Below, piece by piece: positions 6,314 to 47,745 of a DNA stretch of 48,374 bases. Made by a program: the position numbers and the translations under genes. Positions within the stretch are counted from its first letter, which is position 1, and each line of letters opens with the position of its first letter. The notes below the pieces were generated by a model, which searched no databases, was not told where the DNA came from, and saw nothing but the letters and a program-made list of their open reading frames with translations. This DNA comes from Deltaproteobacteria bacterium (lineage in GTDB: Bacteria > Desulfobacterota > GWC2-55-46 > UBA9637): positions 1 through 48,374 of the forward strand of contig JACRML010000006.1 in NCBI GenBank assembly GCA_016214995.1. Direction: 5' to 3'.

Positions 6314-6388
6314 ATTTACGAATTACGATTTACGAATTATGATTTAAAATCTGAAATCGTAAATCTGAAATCGTAAATCTGAAATCGT
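6314..6388. repeat. Heptamer hairpin array ending at the dxs start codon
   Basis: The left arm is TTACGAA/TTACGAT/TTATGAT heptads and the right arm is alternating AAATCTG and AAATCGT heptads; the arms are partly complementary. The array fills the whole ispA-dxs gap and touches the dxs ATG, so no ribosome-binding site lies next to it. The nearest AAGGA overlaps the ispA stop at about 6308-6312. Confidence 0.75.
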
Positions 6389-7204
6389 ATGTCCAAATTA
6401 TTAGATACCATAAACAATCCCGACGACTTAAAGAAACTGCCTGCTGAAAAACTGCCTGCGCTTGCCCATGAAATAAGGGAAGAGATTGTAAACGGCATAT
6501 CAAAAACAGGAGGGCATCTGGCATCCAGCCTTGGCGCTGTGGATATTGCAGTTGCTATCCATTATGTATTTAATACGCCTGATGACAAGGTTGTCTGGGA
6601 TGTGGGTCATCAGGCATATGCGCATAAGATTTTAACAGAAAGAAGAGAGGCGTTTAAAACTATTCGTCAATTGGGAGGCATAAGCGGTTTTCCCAAACCA
6701 TCTGAAAGCATATATGATGCCTTTGGTGTTGGACATTCTTCCACATCGATATCTGCTGCTATGGGTATGGTTGTTGCGAGAGATTTAAATCATGAGAATT
6801 ATAACGTTATAGCTATTATTGGAGATGGTTCTTTAACGGCTGGTCTTGCATTTGAGGGGTTAAACCAGGCTGGCCATCTTAAAAAAGACATTATTGTTGT
6901 ACTAAATGACAATGAGATGAGCATATCTCAAAATGTTGGCGCCCTCTCTTCTTTTTTGAGCAGAAAGATTACGGGGAGATTGGCAACAAGACTAAAAAAA
7001 GAGGCAGAGGGATTTTTTATATCCATCCCGCGCATAGGAAGCAGACTCGTATCTTTTGCAAAAAGGGCAGAGGATTCACTTATAGCACTGCTTACATCGG
7101 GTATGCTGTTTGAAGGTCTAGGCTTCCATTATATAGGTCCGATAGACGGCCACGATATAGAAGAACTTATAAGCACATTAAGCGATGCCAAGGATCCTGA
7201 CTAA
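6389..7204 (+). CDS. dxs: 1-deoxy-D-xylulose-5-phosphate synthase, N-terminal part (frameshifted)
   Basis: Dxs makes DXP from pyruvate and glyceraldehyde 3-phosphate, the first step of the MEP pathway. This reading frame holds the thiamine-diphosphate-binding half, with [14 protein letters not shown] and [11 protein letters not shown] all intact. It ends at [20 protein letters not shown], then PD and a stop. Family members continue here with about eight more residues, then the TKKGKGY block, which is instead in another frame (next entry). So about 20-26 bp appear to be missing, with a frame change. This is either a real inactivating deletion or an assembly error. It follows ispA, with a repeat array instead of a proper ribosome site. 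Confidence 0.88.
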
Positions 7205-13040: not shown

Positions 13041-15530
13041 ATGGACGTAGAGCAAAACATTTTTGGAGAGAACTTCAAGGTTAGGGGCATAAAAAAGAAA
13101 GTATTGCTTGGGACGCAGAGACAAAAAAGATTAGTTCCGCAGCTTGCGCCGAATGCCTTGAAGGTGTTGGAAAAACGGTATCTCAAAAAAGACCTGAACG
13201 GCAACCCTATAGAAACCCCTGAGGCTATGCTGAGACGGGTGGCAGAAAATATAAGCCAGGCAGATAGATTCTACGACCAAAAGGCAGATGTTTCCGCAAC
13301 CGCAGAGGTTTTTTATGAGATGATGGCCTCTTTGGAATTTATGCCAAATTCCCCAACTCTTATGAACGCTGGCCGGGATTTGCAGCAGCTATCCGCCTGT
13401 TTTGTTCTTCCGGTAGACGATTCCATGGAAAGCATATTTGAGGCTGTTAAACATACGGCCATTATTCACAAATCAGGCGGCGGCACAGGTTTTTCATTTT
13501 CAAGACTCAGACCATCTGGCGATGTGGTAGGTTCAACCTCCGGTATATCATCAGGCCCGATATCATTCATGACCGTATTTGATTCAGCCACAGAGGCCAT
13601 AAAGCAAGGCGGCACAAGGCGCGGAGCAAATATGGGAATCCTGCGTATAGACCATCCTGATATACTGCATTTTATAACCTGCAAACAAGATAACAACAAG
13701 CTAAACAATTTCAATATCTCTGTTGCAATTACAGAAGACTTTATGAAGGCTGTGGAGGCAGATAGAGAATATGAACTCAAGAGCCCCAGAACAGGAAAGA
13801 TGGCAGGAAAATTAAACGCAAAGGAGGTGTTTGAAAAGATAGTAAATATGGCATGGAAAAACGGCGACCCGGGCATAATCTTTATAGACAGGATAAACAG
13901 GGATAATCCAACTCCTCATATAGGCGCTATAGAATCAACAAATCCATGCGGAGAACAGCCTTTGCTTCCGTACGAGTCCTGCAATCTCGGCTCTATAAAT
14001 CTGGCAAAGATGGTAAGAAGACAGGGGTCAGGGGTCAGGGGTCAGGGGTCAAGTGAAACTAAAAATCCATCCCTTGAACCCTCGAATCCTCGAACCCTTG
14101 AATCCTTTCATTATGAAATTGATTGGGATAAACTTGAATATGTTACAAAAGAGGCGGTTCACTTCCTTGATAATGTAATTGACATGAATAGGTATCCAAT
14201 TCAACAGATAGAAAAGATGACAAAGGGCAACCGCAAGATAGGTCTCGGTGTAATGGGCTTTGCAGATATGCTCATAAGGCTTGGCATTCCGTATGATTCT
14301 GACGAGGCTATAAAGACGGCTGAAGATGTTATGGGCTTTATCCATGAAAAAGGGAGAGAGGCGTCTCAGGAGCTTGCGGAAAAGCGCGGCGCATTTCCAA
14401 ACTATGAAGGCTCTATCTATAGCGACGGCGGCAAAGTAAGAAATGCCACGGTAACTACAATTGCCCCTACCGGCACAATCTCCATAATCTCAAACTGCTC
14501 GTCAGGCATAGAGCCTATATTTGCGCTGGCATATACCAGAAATGTTTTGGACGGCGCAGAGCTCGTTGAGGCAAATCCATTATTTGAGGAAATTGCCAAA
14601 GAGCGCGGTTTCTACAACCCTGAGATATTGAAGCAGATTGCAAAGAGCGGCGGTCTTCATGATGTGGCTGGTGTGCCGGATGATATAAAGAGGTTGTTCG
14701 TTACTTCTCATGATATTGTCCCGGAGTGGCATTTAAAGATGCAGGCTGCGTTTCAGGAATATACGGACAATGCGGTCTCAAAGACAGTTAATTTCCCGAA
14801 TGAGGCAACTGCTGAAGATGTGGCAGAAGTTTACCAATTAGCATATAAGTTGGACTGCAAAGGTGTTACGGTTTACAGGGACGGTTCGCGGGATGTGCAG
14901 GTGCTGAATAAGGGGCAGAAGAAAGAGTCAGAGAGTCAGAGAGTCAAAGAGTCAGAAGAAACCCACATCCCACATCCCACATCCCACATCCCAGTTTTTC
15001 TTACCCCCAAGCCGCGCGGCGAGGTTACATTTGGCGCAACAAGAAAGATGAAAACAGGTTGCGGAAATCTTTATGTAACCATAAATGAGGATGAAGAAGG
15101 ATGGCCGTTCGAGATATTCACGCAAATAGGCAAGACAGGCGGATGTGCGGCATCTCAGTGCGAGGCCATAGGAAGAATGGCATCTCTTGCCTTGCGGAGC
15201 GGCATTCAGCCGGAGGATATTGTAACACAGATGCGCGGCATAAGCTGTCATGTGCCTATGGGTTATGGCAAGGAAAAAATACTGTCATGCTCAGATGCTG
15301 TTGCCAGGGCTATGGACTGGTATGTGAATTACAAGAGGCAGTTAACTGTGAACAGTGAACAGTTGAACGTTAATCATGGGCAGTTTATGACATATGGCTC
15401 ACAGTTTACAGTTCACAGCTCACACTTTACAGATGTTTTGCAGAGAGGCGCTTGCCCGGATTGCGGCGCGCAGATGCAGTATGAGGAGGGGTGCGCCAAG
15501 TGCAACTGCGGGTATTCGGACTGCGGGTGA
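13041..15530 (+). CDS. nrdJ: Adenosylcobalamin-dependent (class II) ribonucleoside-diphosphate reductase
   Basis: Reduces ribonucleotides to deoxyribonucleotides with a B12-generated thiyl radical, without oxygen. The 829-residue product has the RNR core (FMPNSPTLMNAGRDLQQLSACFVLP, in part), KSGGGTGFSFSRLR, GGTRRGANMGIL, ESTNPCGEQPLLPYESCNLG at about 298-317 and TIAPTGTISIISNCSSGIEP. The tail has an extra domain and a cysteine-rich zinc-ribbon-like end (CPDCGAQM ... CNCGYSDCG) typical of NrdJ. AAGGAGG precedes ATG 13041. Three in-frame repeat-derived segments (about residues 329-355, 628-650 and 767-797) interrupt it; they fall at loops and spare the catalytic cysteines. Control is probably by NrdR. 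Confidence 0.93.
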   Translation: MDVEQNIFGENFKVRGIKKKVLLGTQRQKRLVPQLAPNALKVLEKRYLKKDLNGNPIETPEAMLRRVAENISQADRFYDQKADVSATAEVFYEMMASLEFMPNSPTLMNAGRDLQQLSACFVLPVDDSMESIFEAVKHTAIIHKSGGGTGFSFSRLRPSGDVVGSTSGISSGPISFMTVFDSATEAIKQGGTRRGANMGILRIDHPDILHFITCKQDNNKLNNFNISVAITEDFMKAVEADREYELKSPRTGKMAGKLNAKEVFEKIVNMAWKNGDPGIIFIDRINRDNPTPHIGAIESTNPCGEQPLLPYESCNLGSINLAKMVRRQGSGVRGQGSSETKNPSLEPSNPRTLESFHYEIDWDKLEYVTKEAVHFLDNVIDMNRYPIQQIEKMTKGNRKIGLGVMGFADMLIRLGIPYDSDEAIKTAEDVMGFIHEKGREASQELAEKRGAFPNYEGSIYSDGGKVRNATVTTIAPTGTISIISNCSSGIEPIFALAYTRNVLDGAELVEANPLFEEIAKERGFYNPEILKQIAKSGGLHDVAGVPDDIKRLFVTSHDIVPEWHLKMQAAFQEYTDNAVSKTVNFPNEATAEDVAEVYQLAYKLDCKGVTVYRDGSRDVQVLNKGQKKESESQRVKESEETHIPHPTSHIPVFLTPKPRGEVTFGATRKMKTGCGNLYVTINEDEEGWPFEIFTQIGKTGGCAASQCEAIGRMASLALRSGIQPEDIVTQMRGISCHVPMGYGKEKILSCSDAVARAMDWYVNYKRQLTVNSEQLNVNHGQFMTYGSQFTVHSSHFTDVLQRGACPDCGAQMQYEEGCAKCNCGYSDCG
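14024..14106. repeat. Heptamer array 1 inside nrdJ
   Basis: Four exact GGGGTCA heptads (14024-14051), followed by a pyrimidine-rich series with about 7-bp period (CCTTGAA, CCCTCGA, ATCCTCG). In frame, it encodes an RQGSGVRGQGSS-type loop just after the catalytic NLGSINL segment. Confidence 0.85.
14924..14993. repeat. Octamer/heptamer array 2 inside nrdJ
   Basis: GAGAGTCA units with 8-bp period, then four CCCACAT heptads. In frame, it encodes a Lys/Glu/Ser linker followed by HIPHPTSHIP between the barrel and the C-terminal domain. Confidence 0.85.
15341..15432. repeat. Heptamer hairpin array 3 inside nrdJ
   Basis: The left arm GTTAACTGTGAACAGTGAAC and the right arm of CAGTTTA/CAGTTCA/CAGCTCA heptads are complementary. 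In frame, it forms a polar linker just before the C-terminal cysteine cluster. Confidence 0.85.
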
Positions 15531-21991: not shown

Positions 21992-23400
21992 AAGAAAAGT
22001 CAAAAGTCAAAAGTCAGAAGTCAGAAGACAGGGGCCTGCCCCCGCAGGCGTTAAGCAGGGGTCAGGGGTCAGAGACAATAGAAGGCCTTTCCAAGGCATT
22101 GAAAAATAAGGTTGATGCCTGGGAGATATTCTATTCCTCACAGAGGGGGCTTTCTGTTGAGGCAAAAGACGGCAAGGTGGATGCCTTCAAGGTTTCTTCA
22201 AACGAAGGAGTTGGGCTAAGGGTTTTAAAGAATAAGAGGATTGGCTTTTCATTTACCAGCGTGCTGTCAAAAAGCTCTATGAAAGAATTGCTGGAAAATG
22301 CTGTTGCAGCAAGTAAAGGGGTTGAATCTGATGAATTTTTATCCGTGACATCACCTCAACAGGGGGTGGGCAAAGATCTGCTGCTTTTTGATTCATCGCT
22401 GGATAAGACATCGGAAGAGGATAAAATACGGAAGGCAATCGGTCTTGAACAGGCTGCAAAGGGTTTTGACCCGAGGGTCTCAAAGGTGAGAAAGGCAAGC
22501 TACGGCGAGTCTTTTTTTGAAAGCAGGTTAATCAATTCAGTGGGTGTTGATGTAATAAATAAAGCTACATTTGTTTCTTCCAATATTATGGCAGTCGCAG
22601 AAGAGAGAGGGGATTCGCAGATGGGCTGGGAAATGGACATGAGTCATTTTGCAAAAGATGTGGATGTGGTAAAGGTTGGCAGGGATGCTGCAAAAAGGGC
22701 AGTAGGTATGCTTGGCGCCAGGACGATAAAGACTGTAAAATGTCCTGTCGTCATAGAGAATATAATTGTGGGAGAATTTCTGGAGATAATTGCCCCATCT
22801 TTCCATGCTGATAATCTTTATAAAGGGAAGTCCATGCTCAAGGGAAAGAAAGGTAAAAAGGTGTTTAGCGATAAGGTTAGTATATGGGATGACGGCCTTT
22901 TGCCAAACGGATGGAGCACATCTGAATATGACGGCGAGGGTGTTCCAAGGCAAAAAACCTCCCTTGCCGGCAGAGGGGTTTGCCTGAATTATTTATATGA
23001 TACATACTGGGCAAAGAGGGAAGGGGCAGCCTCCACAGGGAATGCGGCAAGGTCTAATTTTAAATCTATCTCAACTATCGGTGTATCCAATTTTTATATG
23101 GAAAAGGGAGTAAAGGATTTAAACGGCCTTTTAAGGCAGATGGACAGAGGTCTTCTTCTTACAAATGTACTTGGGGCGCATACTGCAAATCCAATAACAG
23201 GCGACTTTTCATTTGGCGCAGACGGCCTTTGGGTGGAAGGGGGCAGGATCAGCCACCCTGTGAGAGGGACTGCAATATCAGGCAATATGCTTGAATTGTT
23301 TTCTAAAATAGAGATTGTAGGCGCAGACTTGAGATTTATCGGCGGAGTCGGCGCCCCGAGCCTGCTGATAAGCGAGATGGAAATAAGCGGTTCCAATTGA
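21988..23400 (+). CDS. pmbA: PmbA/TldD-family metalloprotease-like protein
   Basis: A 470-residue protein of the TldD/TldE (PmbA) family, which forms a cytoplasmic peptidase complex. The conserved segments WEIFYSSQRGLSVEAKDGKV, SNEGVGLRVLKNKRIGF, the C-terminal GAHTANPITGDFSFGADGLW and RGTAISGNMLELFSKI are present. No HExxxH was seen, so it is the PmbA-like rather than the TldD-like subunit; no partner gene lies adjacent. The first ~28 residues after ATG 21988 are translated repeat (heptads plus a palindrome) and replace the usual short N-terminus. It is coupled to the GNAT gene by an ATGA overlap. Confidence 0.88.
   Translation: MKEKSKVKSQKSEDRGLPPQALSRGQGSETIEGLSKALKNKVDAWEIFYSSQRGLSVEAKDGKVDAFKVSSNEGVGLRVLKNKRIGFSFTSVLSKSSMKELLENAVAASKGVESDEFLSVTSPQQGVGKDLLLFDSSLDKTSEEDKIRKAIGLEQAAKGFDPRVSKVRKASYGESFFESRLINSVGVDVINKATFVSSNIMAVAEERGDSQMGWEMDMSHFAKDVDVVKVGRDAAKRAVGMLGARTIKTVKCPVVIENIIVGEFLEIIAPSFHADNLYKGKSMLKGKKGKKVFSDKVSIWDDGLLPNGWSTSEYDGEGVPRQKTSLAGRGVCLNYLYDTYWAKREGAASTGNAARSNFKSISTIGVSNFYMEKGVKDLNGLLRQMDRGLLLTNVLGAHTANPITGDFSFGADGLWVEGGRISHPVRGTAISGNMLELFSKIEIVGADLRFIGGVGAPSLLISEMEISGSN
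21997..22073. repeat. Heptamer plus palindrome element at the start of pmbA
   Basis: AAAAGTC and AGAAGTC heptads are followed by GGGGCCTGCCCCCGCAGGCG and TTAAGCAGGGGTCAGGGGTC. The second half is the same composite as the proS element at 169-230. It encodes most of the N-terminal extension of the PmbA-like protein. Confidence 0.85.
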
Positions 23401-26289: not shown

Positions 26290-26346
26290 ACGATTTTCGA
26301 ATTACGAATTAAATCGAAAATCGGCAATCGTAAATCGTAAATTATT
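26290..26346 (+). repeat. 57-bp direct repeat, copy 1
   Basis: Identical to 26410-26466, offset by exactly 120 bp. Within it, CGATTTTCGAATTACGAATT can pair with the AATCGGC/AATCGTA/AATCGTA heptads, so each copy is itself a heptamer hairpin. Confidence 0.85.
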
Positions 26347-26409
26347 AATAATGCCGCTTGGATTCAGATTTTTGAACCGGGACGGAAGGACAAATAGGAA
26401 TTACGACTT

Positions 26410-26466
26410 ACGATTTTCGAATTACGAATTAAATCGAAAATCGGCAATCGTAAATCGTAAATTATT
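26410..26466 (+). repeat. 57-bp direct repeat, copy 2
   Basis: Second copy of the unit at 26290-26346, between the kinase gene and panB. The 63-bp spacer between copies holds no gene. Confidence 0.85.
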
Positions 26467-43693: not shown

Positions 43694-43723
43694 AATAGAT
43701 GAGATAAAAGGAGGGGTGTTTGT

Positions 43724-45238
43724 ATGAAAGAAGTCAGAAGTCAGAAGTCAGAAGTCAGAAGCAAGAAGTTAGAAGCGAGGAAAAAATCTTGCCTCTTGTC
43801 TCTTGTCTCTTACCTCTTCTTTTCCTGCTTACTGCTTACTGTTTTCATCGGCTGCGCCTTGCCGAGGCCGCATATCCCTCCCAACCCTGCCAATCCCATA
43901 AAAATAGTGGCCGTGCTTCCCATGGTAAATCAGACCAATGATGTGGAGGCCCCTGAAAAAGTGAGAGAGATATTTACCGCTAAATTGCCGGAGCGGTGTT
44001 ATATTCATAAACCTATCCAGGAGGTGAATCAGATACTCAAGGATGAACTTGGTATCACGCTTGGTTCACAGCTTGATATGACCAATCCGCAGGAACTGGG
44101 CAAGAAGCTCGGGGTGGATGGTGTTATATATGGTGCGCTCTTCAACTTTGAAGAAAAGACTACCGGTGTCCTGAATATCAGAAGAGTGAGGGCAGGCTTC
44201 AAGCTGGTTGATACCAAGACAGGAACGGTGGTATGGGGAAGAGGCCAGGGTGTCAAGAGTGAAACAAGGATGACTGAAGGCGCTGCAGGCACCGTGGCTG
44301 GTGCGGCATCCGGGGTTAGCAAATATCAGGATGTAAAAGAGGGGAAAGATACTAAGGATGTAGGCGATTATGTTGGGGTGCAGGATTGGCACAACCTGCC
44401 GCCGGAAAAGGCCATGAGCGAAAAGCTTGGGCAGAGCGGGTTTGTTGCAGGCCTTGCTGCCGGTTTGGCAGAGAAAACCGTTAGAAAGGCAACAGGCACA
44501 TTTCTGAAGCATGAATCAGAATCCATGACAGACATGATACTTAATACTCTGCCGGCTGGGCCTGGCTCAGCTTTATGCGGTGGAACAGCTGTTGCCTCGG
44601 TTCCGATGCTGCCTGCAATACCTGAACCGAAAATGCCGGAATTCAGTATTCCGGGTTATTTTGAATTCGGCAAAAGGGATTTTACTGCCGACATGATTAT
44701 GACATCTATAGTCAAGTCAAATAATGAAAAGATGACATTTGACGCTAAGCTTGCAAAACTTGGAGAAAAATTCAGAAGCGAAATGGATATGGCAAAGGCG
44801 CTCAAGGCAAGAGGGGGTGAGATGCCGCCAGGTTTCGGCAGAAATGTATTTATAACAAGGCCGGATTTGAAGCTGGATTATATAATATATCCTGATAAAA
44901 ATAAATATATGGAATTGGCTATCAAAGAAGAAAAATATGAAAAGCCGAAGATTGAAAAAAAGAAGATTGGGTCAGAGAAGATAGACGGCCATCCCTGTGA
45001 TAAATATTGGGTCAGGATTACCGAAAAGGATGGGAGCAGCGAGGAAGGCTATCTTTGGGAGGCAACAGACCTCGGCAGGTTTGTCATAAGGGCTGAGATG
45101 GAAAACAAGGATGCAAAGACTGTTGTGGAACTAAAGAATATAAAACTTGTGAGTCCGCCCAAGGCCCTTTTTGAGGTGCCGCAAGGATATATCAAGGCAT
45201 CCGGTATGATGGAGATTTTCATGGAGGAGAGAAGGTAG
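43724..45238 (+). CDS. Lipoprotein: GNA1162/DUF799-like domain fused to a DUF4412-like domain
   Basis: A 504-residue lipoprotein. The signal peptide has an unusual origin: n-region KEVRSQKSEVRSKKLEARKK and h-region LLSLVSYLFFSCLLLTVFIG, ending at a lipobox-like FIGC, are all encoded by heptamer repeats. Residues about 55-190 (KIVAVLPMVNQTNDVEAPEK, LGKKLGVDGVIYGALFNF) resemble the GNA1162/DUF799 lipoproteins, related in fold to CsgG. Residues about 330-500 (DFTADMIMTSIVKSNNEKMT, HPCDKYWVRITEKDG) resemble DUF4412. Family names are from memory. It follows the FlgT-like gene, with AGGAGG before ATG 43724. Confidence 0.7.
   Translation: MKEVRSQKSEVRSKKLEARKKSCLLSLVSYLFFSCLLLTVFIGCALPRPHIPPNPANPIKIVAVLPMVNQTNDVEAPEKVREIFTAKLPERCYIHKPIQEVNQILKDELGITLGSQLDMTNPQELGKKLGVDGVIYGALFNFEEKTTGVLNIRRVRAGFKLVDTKTGTVVWGRGQGVKSETRMTEGAAGTVAGAASGVSKYQDVKEGKDTKDVGDYVGVQDWHNLPPEKAMSEKLGQSGFVAGLAAGLAEKTVRKATGTFLKHESESMTDMILNTLPAGPGSALCGGTAVASVPMLPAIPEPKMPEFSIPGYFEFGKRDFTADMIMTSIVKSNNEKMTFDAKLAKLGEKFRSEMDMAKALKARGGEMPPGFGRNVFITRPDLKLDYIIYPDKNKYMELAIKEEKYEKPKIEKKKIGSEKIDGHPCDKYWVRITEKDGSSEEGYLWEATDLGRFVIRAEMENKDAKTVVELKNIKLVSPPKALFEVPQGYIKASGMMEIFMEERR
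43727..43855. repeat. Heptamer hairpin array encoding a signal peptide (gene 43724)
   Basis: The left arm has GAAGTCA x4, then GAAGCAA, GAAGTTA, GAAGCGA. The right arm has CCTCTTG, TCTCTTG, TCTCTTA, CCTCTTC, then GCTTACT x2. The arms are broadly complementary (purine versus pyrimidine). Codons 2-43 of the lipoprotein lie inside it. Confidence 0.9.
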
Positions 45239-46376: not shown

Positions 46377-46391
46377 AAAGGAGGTATCAAT

Positions 46392-47663
46392 ATGAAAGTC
46401 AGGAGTCAGGAGTCAGAAATTAGAAGTCAGAAGTTAGAAGTAAGAAACAAGAAAAAATCTTGCATCTTGCATCTTGCATCTTGCATCTTACTGTTCACTG
46501 CCTTTTATGGTTGTGCAAAGCCTATTGCCAAATGCACAACTCCGGAGGATAACCCGCCGCATCATTATGCCAGGGGCATGGAGCTTCTGGAGCAGGGTAA
46601 GATTGGCGATGCGGAGACAAAGTTTGAGAGGGCATTGTATTGTGATGGAGGGTATAGTCCGGCGCATGGTGGTTTAGCTATGGTCAATGCTGAAAAGGCA
46701 AAGACTCAAAAGGAACCAGGCTATCGTCAGACAGATACCGGTAAGGCAATGGACCACCTAAAACATGCGAAGAAACTTGCAAATACAAAAGAGGACGAGT
46801 TTGCATATCATGTTGCCGGCCTGAGGGTTGCTACAGCGTTGAAGACCAAAGGGTGGCTCGATGACGCAGAAGACCACGCTAAGGATGCAATGAAGCTCAA
46901 TGTGGATGAGCGCAAGCTTATCTATTATGAAGGCAAGGAGGCTGCCCCGTATTTTATGGGTGTTGCCTATCTTGAGGCAAGAGAGTTTCAAAAGGCAAGG
47001 GATAAATTCAGTGAAACTCTTAATATGAAGAGAGAAGGCAAATGGAACGAAAAGGCAGATAAAGGATGGAAACGGGTAGATAAGATAGTTAGGGCAATGG
47101 GAGGTATTACACTTGGCGATGTAGGTAAGGAGATAGCCACGAGGGAATCTGTGAACAGGGGTGATATGGCGGCGCTTTTGGCGGATGAGCTAAAGATAGA
47201 TAAGCTATTTGCGGGAAGGATTCCTGTAAAAAGCGAGATAGATAAACTCAAGGCGGAGTTTACTCCGGCAGATGTGCTGAACCACCACTTTAAGGAAGAG
47301 GTGCTTACTATGATGAAGTGGGGGATAAGGGGGCTTGAGCCGCAATATGATCAGACAACAAAGGCAAATCTCTTTAAGCCTGATAATGGTGTAACAAGAA
47401 AGGAATTTGCCCTTGTATTGGAAGATATACTGGTAAAACTTACCGGTGATGAAAAAATTGCAACTGCCTATTTTGGTCAGGAGAGGTCGCCGTTCCCAGA
47501 TGTGCCGGCTACAGCCCCGTGGTACAATGCAGTGATGAATATGACCACAAGGGGACTTATGGAGCCAGAGCTTTCAGGTGAATTCAGGGTGAATGACCTT
47601 GTAGACGGCGCGGAGGCTATACTGGCTATAAGGGTTTTAAGACAGAGGATGAATATTTATTAA
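46392..47663 (+). CDS. TPR lipoprotein with C-terminal SLH-like region
   Basis: A 423-residue lipoprotein. The signal peptide (KVRSQESEIRSQKLEVRNKK, then SCILHLASCILLFTAFYGC) is again repeat-encoded and ends in a lipobox-like FYGC. TPR-like repeats cover about 55-235 (ARGMELLEQGKIGDAETKFE, PYFMGVAYLEAREFQKARDK). Residues about 250-423 contain S-layer-homology-like pieces (VNRGDMAALLADEL, VTRKEFALVLEDIL, SPFPDVPATAPWYNAVMNMT). SLH modules bind cell-surface polymers. AAGGAGG precedes ATG 46392. It is one of five neighbouring envelope genes. Confidence 0.78.
   Translation: MKVRSQESEIRSQKLEVRNKKKSCILHLASCILLFTAFYGCAKPIAKCTTPEDNPPHHYARGMELLEQGKIGDAETKFERALYCDGGYSPAHGGLAMVNAEKAKTQKEPGYRQTDTGKAMDHLKHAKKLANTKEDEFAYHVAGLRVATALKTKGWLDDAEDHAKDAMKLNVDERKLIYYEGKEAAPYFMGVAYLEAREFQKARDKFSETLNMKREGKWNEKADKGWKRVDKIVRAMGGITLGDVGKEIATRESVNRGDMAALLADELKIDKLFAGRIPVKSEIDKLKAEFTPADVLNHHFKEEVLTMMKWGIRGLEPQYDQTTKANLFKPDNGVTRKEFALVLEDILVKLTGDEKIATAYFGQERSPFPDVPATAPWYNAVMNMTTRGLMEPELSGEFRVNDLVDGAEAILAIRVLRQRMNIY
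46396..46500. repeat. Heptamer hairpin array encoding a signal peptide (gene 46392)
   Basis: The left arm is GTCAGGA/GTCAGAA/GTTAGAA/GTAAGAA heptads; the right arm is CTTGCAT repeated four times, then CTTACTG. The frame runs through both arms. The arms differ in unit sequence from the array at 43727-43855 but have the same design. Confidence 0.9.
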
Positions 47664-47745
47664 AAGGCAGGCGATAGGCAATAGGTTATAGGCAATAGGT
47701 AAAATGAAAACCTATAGCCCATTGCCCATTGCCCATAGCCTGTAT
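47664..47745. repeat. Heptamer hairpin array before the LPP20-like gene
   Basis: GCGATAG, GCAATAG, GTTATAG, GCAATAG on the left; CTATAGC, CCATTGC, CCATTGC, CCATAGC on the right. A near relative lies between panB and panC (27322-27402). Confidence 0.85.

Follow-up and report, generated by a model that had tools for sequence, protein, structure and literature searches.

Known repeat systems and the present locus

In Yersinia, the RU-2/YPAL element forms part of the signal peptide of YPO1552, and orthologues elsewhere carry unrelated signals (Delihas 2007, PMC2759123, PMC2229807). Here we describe a similar situation in a 48,374-nt stretch (the window) of contig JACRML010000006.1 from a Deltaproteobacteria bacterium, in which tandem 7-bp (heptamer) arrays code for the charged n-region and the uncharged, hydrophobic h-region of the predicted signal peptides of two lipoprotein genes, at 43724 (P0001) and at 46392 (P0002). 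Unlike Yersinia RU-2, which concerns one gene and one element of ~168 bp with a fixed sequence, the present case involves many genes, heptamers, several lineages and turnover between sister genomes. We favour, with a probability of roughly 0.75, the explanation that arrays replaced the n- and h-regions of pre-existing signals in a subset of exported-protein genes, and that heptamer turnover followed. The genome under study is called G000 and its sister G002.

The arrays share their 7-bp direct repeats with TAACTGA and other bacterial heptamer repeats, and one family found here, CAGTTAT, is TAACTGA on the opposite strand (MacGregor 2015, PMC4679880). Translation of the TAACTGA repeat was also considered in that work; however, it concerns one heptamer, mostly intergenic and upstream of starts, and a search of its text found no mention of signal peptides (PMC4679880). 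Rickettsia palindromic elements (RPE) lie in frame in conserved genes including guanylate kinase, the gene (Gmk) in which an array occurs here as well, but they are fixed elements of 105-146 bp with no heptamer array, and no concentration in signal peptides is described for them (PMC2229807). PARCELs are palindromic tandem coding repeats linked to membrane-targeted proteins, although their repeats are amphipathic domains of 25 residues within the body of the protein and not signal peptides (PMC2996958). Beyond the Yersinia case, we found no heptamer-derived signal peptides in a literature search that left most subscription journals outside. Repeat-derived signal peptides and bacterial heptamer repeats are each already known; the scale, the heptamer turnover and the frame tolerance appear to be new.

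Two lipoprotein genes with heptamer-coded N-termini

The features of P0001 are:

43706..43716, + strand: Shine-Dalgarno-like AAAAGGAGGGG (direct reading)
43724..45238, + strand: P0001 lipoprotein gene with GNA1162-like and DUF4412 domains (Pfam 3.1e-12 and 2.5e-8)
43729..43775, + strand: purine-rich heptamer array (GAAGTCA/GAAGCAA; period-7 run AGAAGTC, 6.7 copies), coding for the n-region
43787..43818, + strand: pyrimidine-rich heptamer array (CTTGTCT/CTTACCT; TCTTGYC-type run, 4.6 copies), first part of the h-region
43825..43841, + strand: second pyrimidine heptamer (CTGCTTA x2.4), coding for the end of the h-region
43853..43855, + strand: lipobox cysteine codon, residue 44

The N-terminus of P0001, arrays included, translates as MKEVRSQKSEVRSKKLEARKKSCLLSLVSYLFFSCLLLTVFIGC. 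The start is credible, given the strong ribosome site AAAAGGAGGGG upstream, and none of the downstream starts checked was better; among later starts that might have led into a normal signal, only the TTG of codon 25 came into question, and it was rejected for lacking both a ribosome site and a charged n-region. The original prediction, made from the sequence of the window, had placed codons 2 to about 43 in a 7-bp array followed at once by the lipobox. The period is confirmed, but the array ends at about codon 40 and the cysteine comes four codons further on. The GAAGTCA arm does give the expected Lys/Arg n-region, and the CTTGTCT and GCTTACT units a Leu/Ser/Cys/Val h-region that leads into the lipobox. 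The GCTTACT units are a pyrimidine heptamer as described, but a separate word that is not complementary to the GAAGTCA arm. The proposed hairpin fared less well: RNA stability is at the level of dinucleotide shuffles for P0001 (z -0.27) and moderately above it for P0002 (z -2.24), and the hairpin was discarded as a functional feature, being no stronger than shuffles at 43724. Two observations would have spoken against the prediction, a later start leading into a normal signal peptide and an orthologue that has the same residues but no repeat DNA; both were looked for, and neither was found.

P0002 repeats the design of P0001, namely ribosome site, purine array, pyrimidine array and lipobox, and likewise has no credible downstream start:

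46380..46384, + strand: Shine-Dalgarno GGAGG of the P0002 gene
46392..47663, + strand: P0002, second lipoprotein gene, with TPR and SLH domains
46397..46454, + strand: purine-rich heptamer array, coding for the n-region
46457..46489, + strand: pyrimidine heptamer array (ATCTTGC x4.7), coding for the h-region
46512..46514, + strand: lipobox cysteine codon, residue 41

Judged by eye and by hydropathy, both proteins have a charged, Lys/Arg-rich n-region, an uncharged h-region and a lipobox (...SCLLLTVFIGC in P0001, ...CILLFTAFYGC in P0002). The old PROSITE lipoprotein rule PS00013 expects the cysteine at residue 15-35, and positions 44 and 41 fall outside this range. Array signals in general have long n-regions, with a median of 23 residues versus 4 in plain signals, at similar h-region hydropathy.

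How the heptamers are read

Because 7 mod 3 = 1, all three frames of a perfect heptamer array encode an identical 7-residue peptide, as computation confirmed: GAAGTCA gives EVRSQKS, CTTGCCT gives LASCLLP, CTTGCAT gives LASCILH and ACTGTTT gives TVYCLLF. When all 16,384 heptamers are computed, words made of purines alone average a charge of +1.75 per 7 residues and are strongly hydrophilic, and words made of pyrimidines alone are uncharged and hydrophobic. A purine arm followed by a pyrimidine arm therefore reads as an n-region followed by an h-region. The purine arm is 5' in all 27 clearly polarised elements among 51 two-armed ones (L041-L060, L067-L086, L107-L126 and the window), with none in the reverse order, and since the element is palindromic, the purine-first order is the same on both strands. 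Natural cases in reverse orientation are a LysM-type lipoprotein from a Deltaproteobacteria metagenome-assembled genome (MAG) and a protein of a Nitrospinota MAG. In the Nitrospinota MAG, the heptamer hairpin is also enclosed by an outer one, whose ~10-bp repeats contain CACGGAT (L062 1290-1316, L064 821-847, L065 5483-5509).

The claim that any frame gives the same mix of residues is exact for perfect arrays and does not carry over to real elements, 12% of whose six-frame readings contain a hydrophobic 11-mer free of charge, versus 6% for random genome DNA. Real, imperfect element sequence is thus biased towards a signal but not sufficient for one, and creation of signals by random frame choice was dropped on the strength of this yield.

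Orthologues and heptamer turnover

G000 and G002 group with full support in a small tree. The P0001 orthologues of G001, G004, G006 and G007 have plain signals, e.g. MKNAKKTFYLSLLLSVLWIAGC, and those with arrays are G002, with GAAGTCA, and G005, with another word, GAAACGG/CCCCGATT, in the same place. For P0002, arrays occur in G000, G006 and G007, and plain, mutually similar signals (MKRFSAVWLLFLGLLVAYGC and the like) in G001, G002, G004 and G005; in the G000/G002 alignment the flanks are conserved and the signal DNA alone differs. The same holds for PilQ (AATTTCG/TTTACTG in G000 vs AAGTCAG in G002, flanks conserved) and for a cytochrome c gene, in which the heptamers differ between the two sisters and the flanks do not. 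In CcmH the heptamer is TTACGAT, AATTTCA, TGCTTAC, CAAACTG or ACTATTC, depending on the genome. In a phylum-wide search with the consensus array peptide, strong matches were confined to G000 and G002, and 9 other genomes matched weakly. The GAAGTCA version is therefore local, other heptamers being in use among the relatives. A GNA1162-like lipoprotein relative (L018, reverse strand, G003:C213 near 612) carries, close to the N-terminus, a long tetranucleotide repeat of ATTC in frame, HSFIHSFIHSFI, which resembles a contingency locus.

Across 14 orthologue groups, period-7 runs occurred in 52 of 77 signal-peptide regions versus 1 of 77 equal-length mature stretches, with other periods almost absent, a proportion that applies to groups chosen for an array in G000 and is not a genome-wide rate. 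With G000 and G002 left out, relatives had an array in 29/54 cases by hand count for array groups, versus 1/26 for plain-signal controls (seven G000 genes, 26 relatives' sequences; Fisher P 6e-6). Array occupancy is therefore gene-specific, with the heptamer being exchanged where it stands.

Array-free orthologues in the groups examined nearly always have ordinary signal peptides, from which we conclude that a pre-existing signal was replaced. The suggestion that the repeat creates secretion signals de novo is not borne out by this, and a history in which the array made formerly cytosolic proteins secreted seems to us extremely improbable. It would fit the n/h layout of array peptides and the partly signal-like array N-termini of FabD and others; on the other hand, array-bearing genes include CcmH, PilQ, PilP, LolA, OEP and periplasmic binding proteins, which are constitutively exported families.

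Frame changes within the arrays are compensated. Between G000 and G002, the P0001 arrays differ by two gaps, one of 13 nt and one of 7 nt, that leave 42 aligned nt in different frames; in CcmH there are two gaps of 1 nt each, and 31 nt are frame-shifted. In both genes the two products keep the charged-then-hydrophobic layout. Surface-type genes with tandem repeats directly behind the start codon, in units not divisible by 3, recall known phase-variable loci and would suit a contingency locus in which heptamer copy number toggles surface lipoproteins by frameshift. We nevertheless regard this as very unlikely, as the array units are degenerate, the sister-genome indels are compensated, and no array frameshift was seen in any orthologue of the set, all of them being in frame in this comparison across genomes.

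The palindromic elements are also scattered at many places, and Y1_Tnp genes are present in 8/8 family genomes (12 matches in G000), which might indicate a classical mobile element, i.e. a hairpin like a miniature inverted-repeat transposable element (MITE) or a repetitive extragenic palindrome (REP), moved by a transposase of the Y1 or REP-associated tyrosine transposase (RAYT) type. However, such elements, like RPE and RU, have a constant sequence and terminal inverted repeats, and we found many unrelated heptamers, variable lengths and no common ends. The array ends are not sharp, and the P0002 alignment of G000 and G002 shows replacement of signal DNA and not simple insertion. Nor do the repeats flank the transposase genes as REP/RAYT repeats do: an array lies within 400 bp of 1/7 Y1_Tnp genes checked vs a gene baseline of 22%, and a RAYT/Y1 transposase was rejected as the mover. 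A mobile element of this kind is accordingly a rather unlikely explanation. Reverse transcriptase was also rejected as a source, with RVT_1 in just 3/8 family genomes, one copy each.

Abundance and location in the genome

In 371 kb of G000, from contigs picked partly because arrays were present, we counted 74 period-7 runs and 57 at the multiple 14; no other period exceeded 8, and shuffled sequence held zero period-7 runs. The arrays thus greatly outnumber both other periods and the chance expectation, like the tandem 7-bp bacterial heptanucleotide repeats of the STRR/LSSR type.

Location was assessed in an array-blind sample of 473 kb, about a quarter of one genome, made up of two draws in which the first 20 kb was taken from each of a series of numbered contigs; it holds 84 signal-like genes by a hydropathy rule. 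Arrays were found in 13 signal-peptide genes, at 24 other in-gene sites and at 20 intergenic ones. The density per kb is 1.2-2.1 in signal-peptide DNA, 0.058 in other coding DNA and 0.40 in intergenic DNA, giving signal-peptide DNA a 13-24-fold excess over other coding DNA (P 4e-14 to 6e-11, depending on the assumed signal length). Many unrelated secreted genes are thus built alike, which agrees with the original prediction. Array-coded signal peptides are also clustered in neighbouring genes, as if by local spread (L060 4079-6110; L058 5446-6175; L052 11429-12323; L056 10100-10654).

In-frame arrays also occur in TrpA, TrpB, HisG, FabD, Gmk, CobQ, HemC, CarB, cytidylate kinase and ribonucleotide reductase, mostly N-terminal or internal. 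Mainly because of these cytosolic enzymes, an explanation by tolerance alone stays alive: arrays would land at random and persist in signal peptides as the most sequence-tolerant coding DNA, where they make merely passable signals. The same array peptides in frame at N-termini and in loops of cytosolic enzymes, and a six-frame signal capacity of real elements just 2x that of random DNA, speak for it, and we consider it a serious contender at somewhat under even odds. Against it, array density is 3-5x higher in signal-peptide DNA than in intergenic DNA, and across species the arrays are concentrated in certain genes (29/54 vs 1/26). In TrpA, TrpB, HisG and FabD, the array codes for an N-terminal extension directly after the start codon (L048 4630-6695, L049 17163-17870, L050 1217-2221).

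A route by which arrays may replace signals

The genome carries many short 7-bp arrays, both intergenic and in frame in genes; often they have two arms, one purine-rich and one pyrimidine-rich, on either side of an A-rich spacer. Under the replacement reading that we prefer, an array has substituted for the old n- and h-regions in a subset of exported-protein genes, whose ribosome site, first codons and lipobox or cleavage site stayed intact. It can serve because positive charge and then a hydrophobic stretch free of charge are all that a signal peptide requires, with purine heptamers supplying Lys/Arg/Glu/Ser heptads and pyrimidine heptamers Leu/Cys/Ala/Val heptads. Because each frame reads the same heptad, within-array indels summing to a multiple of three are tolerated, and an array-type signal peptide tends to remain an array while its heptamer is swapped, putatively by slippage or template switching together with recombination between arrays. 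A further suggestion, that frame-independent arrays are a standing stock of interchangeable signal modules, swapped across loci and species by recombination and kept for diversifying or tuning export without frame risk, strikes us as unlikely.

Several points weigh against replacement. Many arrays lie in cytosolic genes, and the exchange mechanism, being putative, is a weak point. That the array peptides direct export is predicted from conserved exported families that keep the n/h/c layout. Signal peptides were called with a home-made hydropathy rule and in-gene arrays sorted by eye, on draft assemblies throughout and with a simple longest-open-reading-frame gene caller; the 14 orthologue groups were selected for arrays, and the period-7 detector also catches a few runs just 5' of the start (P0002 in G001).

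The usual view of signal peptides is that they are loosely specified. Conserved exported proteins whose signals are made of simple 7-base words that differ between sister genomes would amount to a natural repeated experiment, on which the least amount of information sufficient for an export signal can be tested, and would offer a route from non-coding repeat to functional protein segment. Reading as the same peptide in every frame could explain how 7-bp repeats survive in genes. For annotators, the warning is that N-termini such as 'VRSQKSEVRSQ' and 'LASCLLPLASC' can be real.

Other heptamer arrays in the window

Further arrays in the window are:

6316..6386, strand not assigned: heptamer hairpin directly before the open reading frame at 6389, of a separate heptamer family (TTACGAA / AAATCGT)
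14022..14051, + strand: CAGGGGT array, in frame in the ribonucleotide reductase gene
14924..14993, + strand: AGAGTCAG and CCCACAT arrays, in frame in the same ribonucleotide reductase gene
15339..15432, + strand: CAGTGAA / TCACAGT arrays, within the same ribonucleotide reductase reading frame
21995..22031, + strand: purine heptamer array, coding in frame for the N-terminus of a TldD/PmbA-type protein that is cytosolic (no signal peptide)
26290..26462, strand not assigned: two near-identical intergenic heptamer hairpins (TTACGAA / AAATCG)
47669..47740, strand not assigned: intergenic heptamer hairpin (GGCAATA / GCCCATT)

The ribonucleotide reductase gene (13041-15530) accommodates at least 5 heptamer or octamer arrays of differing words in a single open frame.
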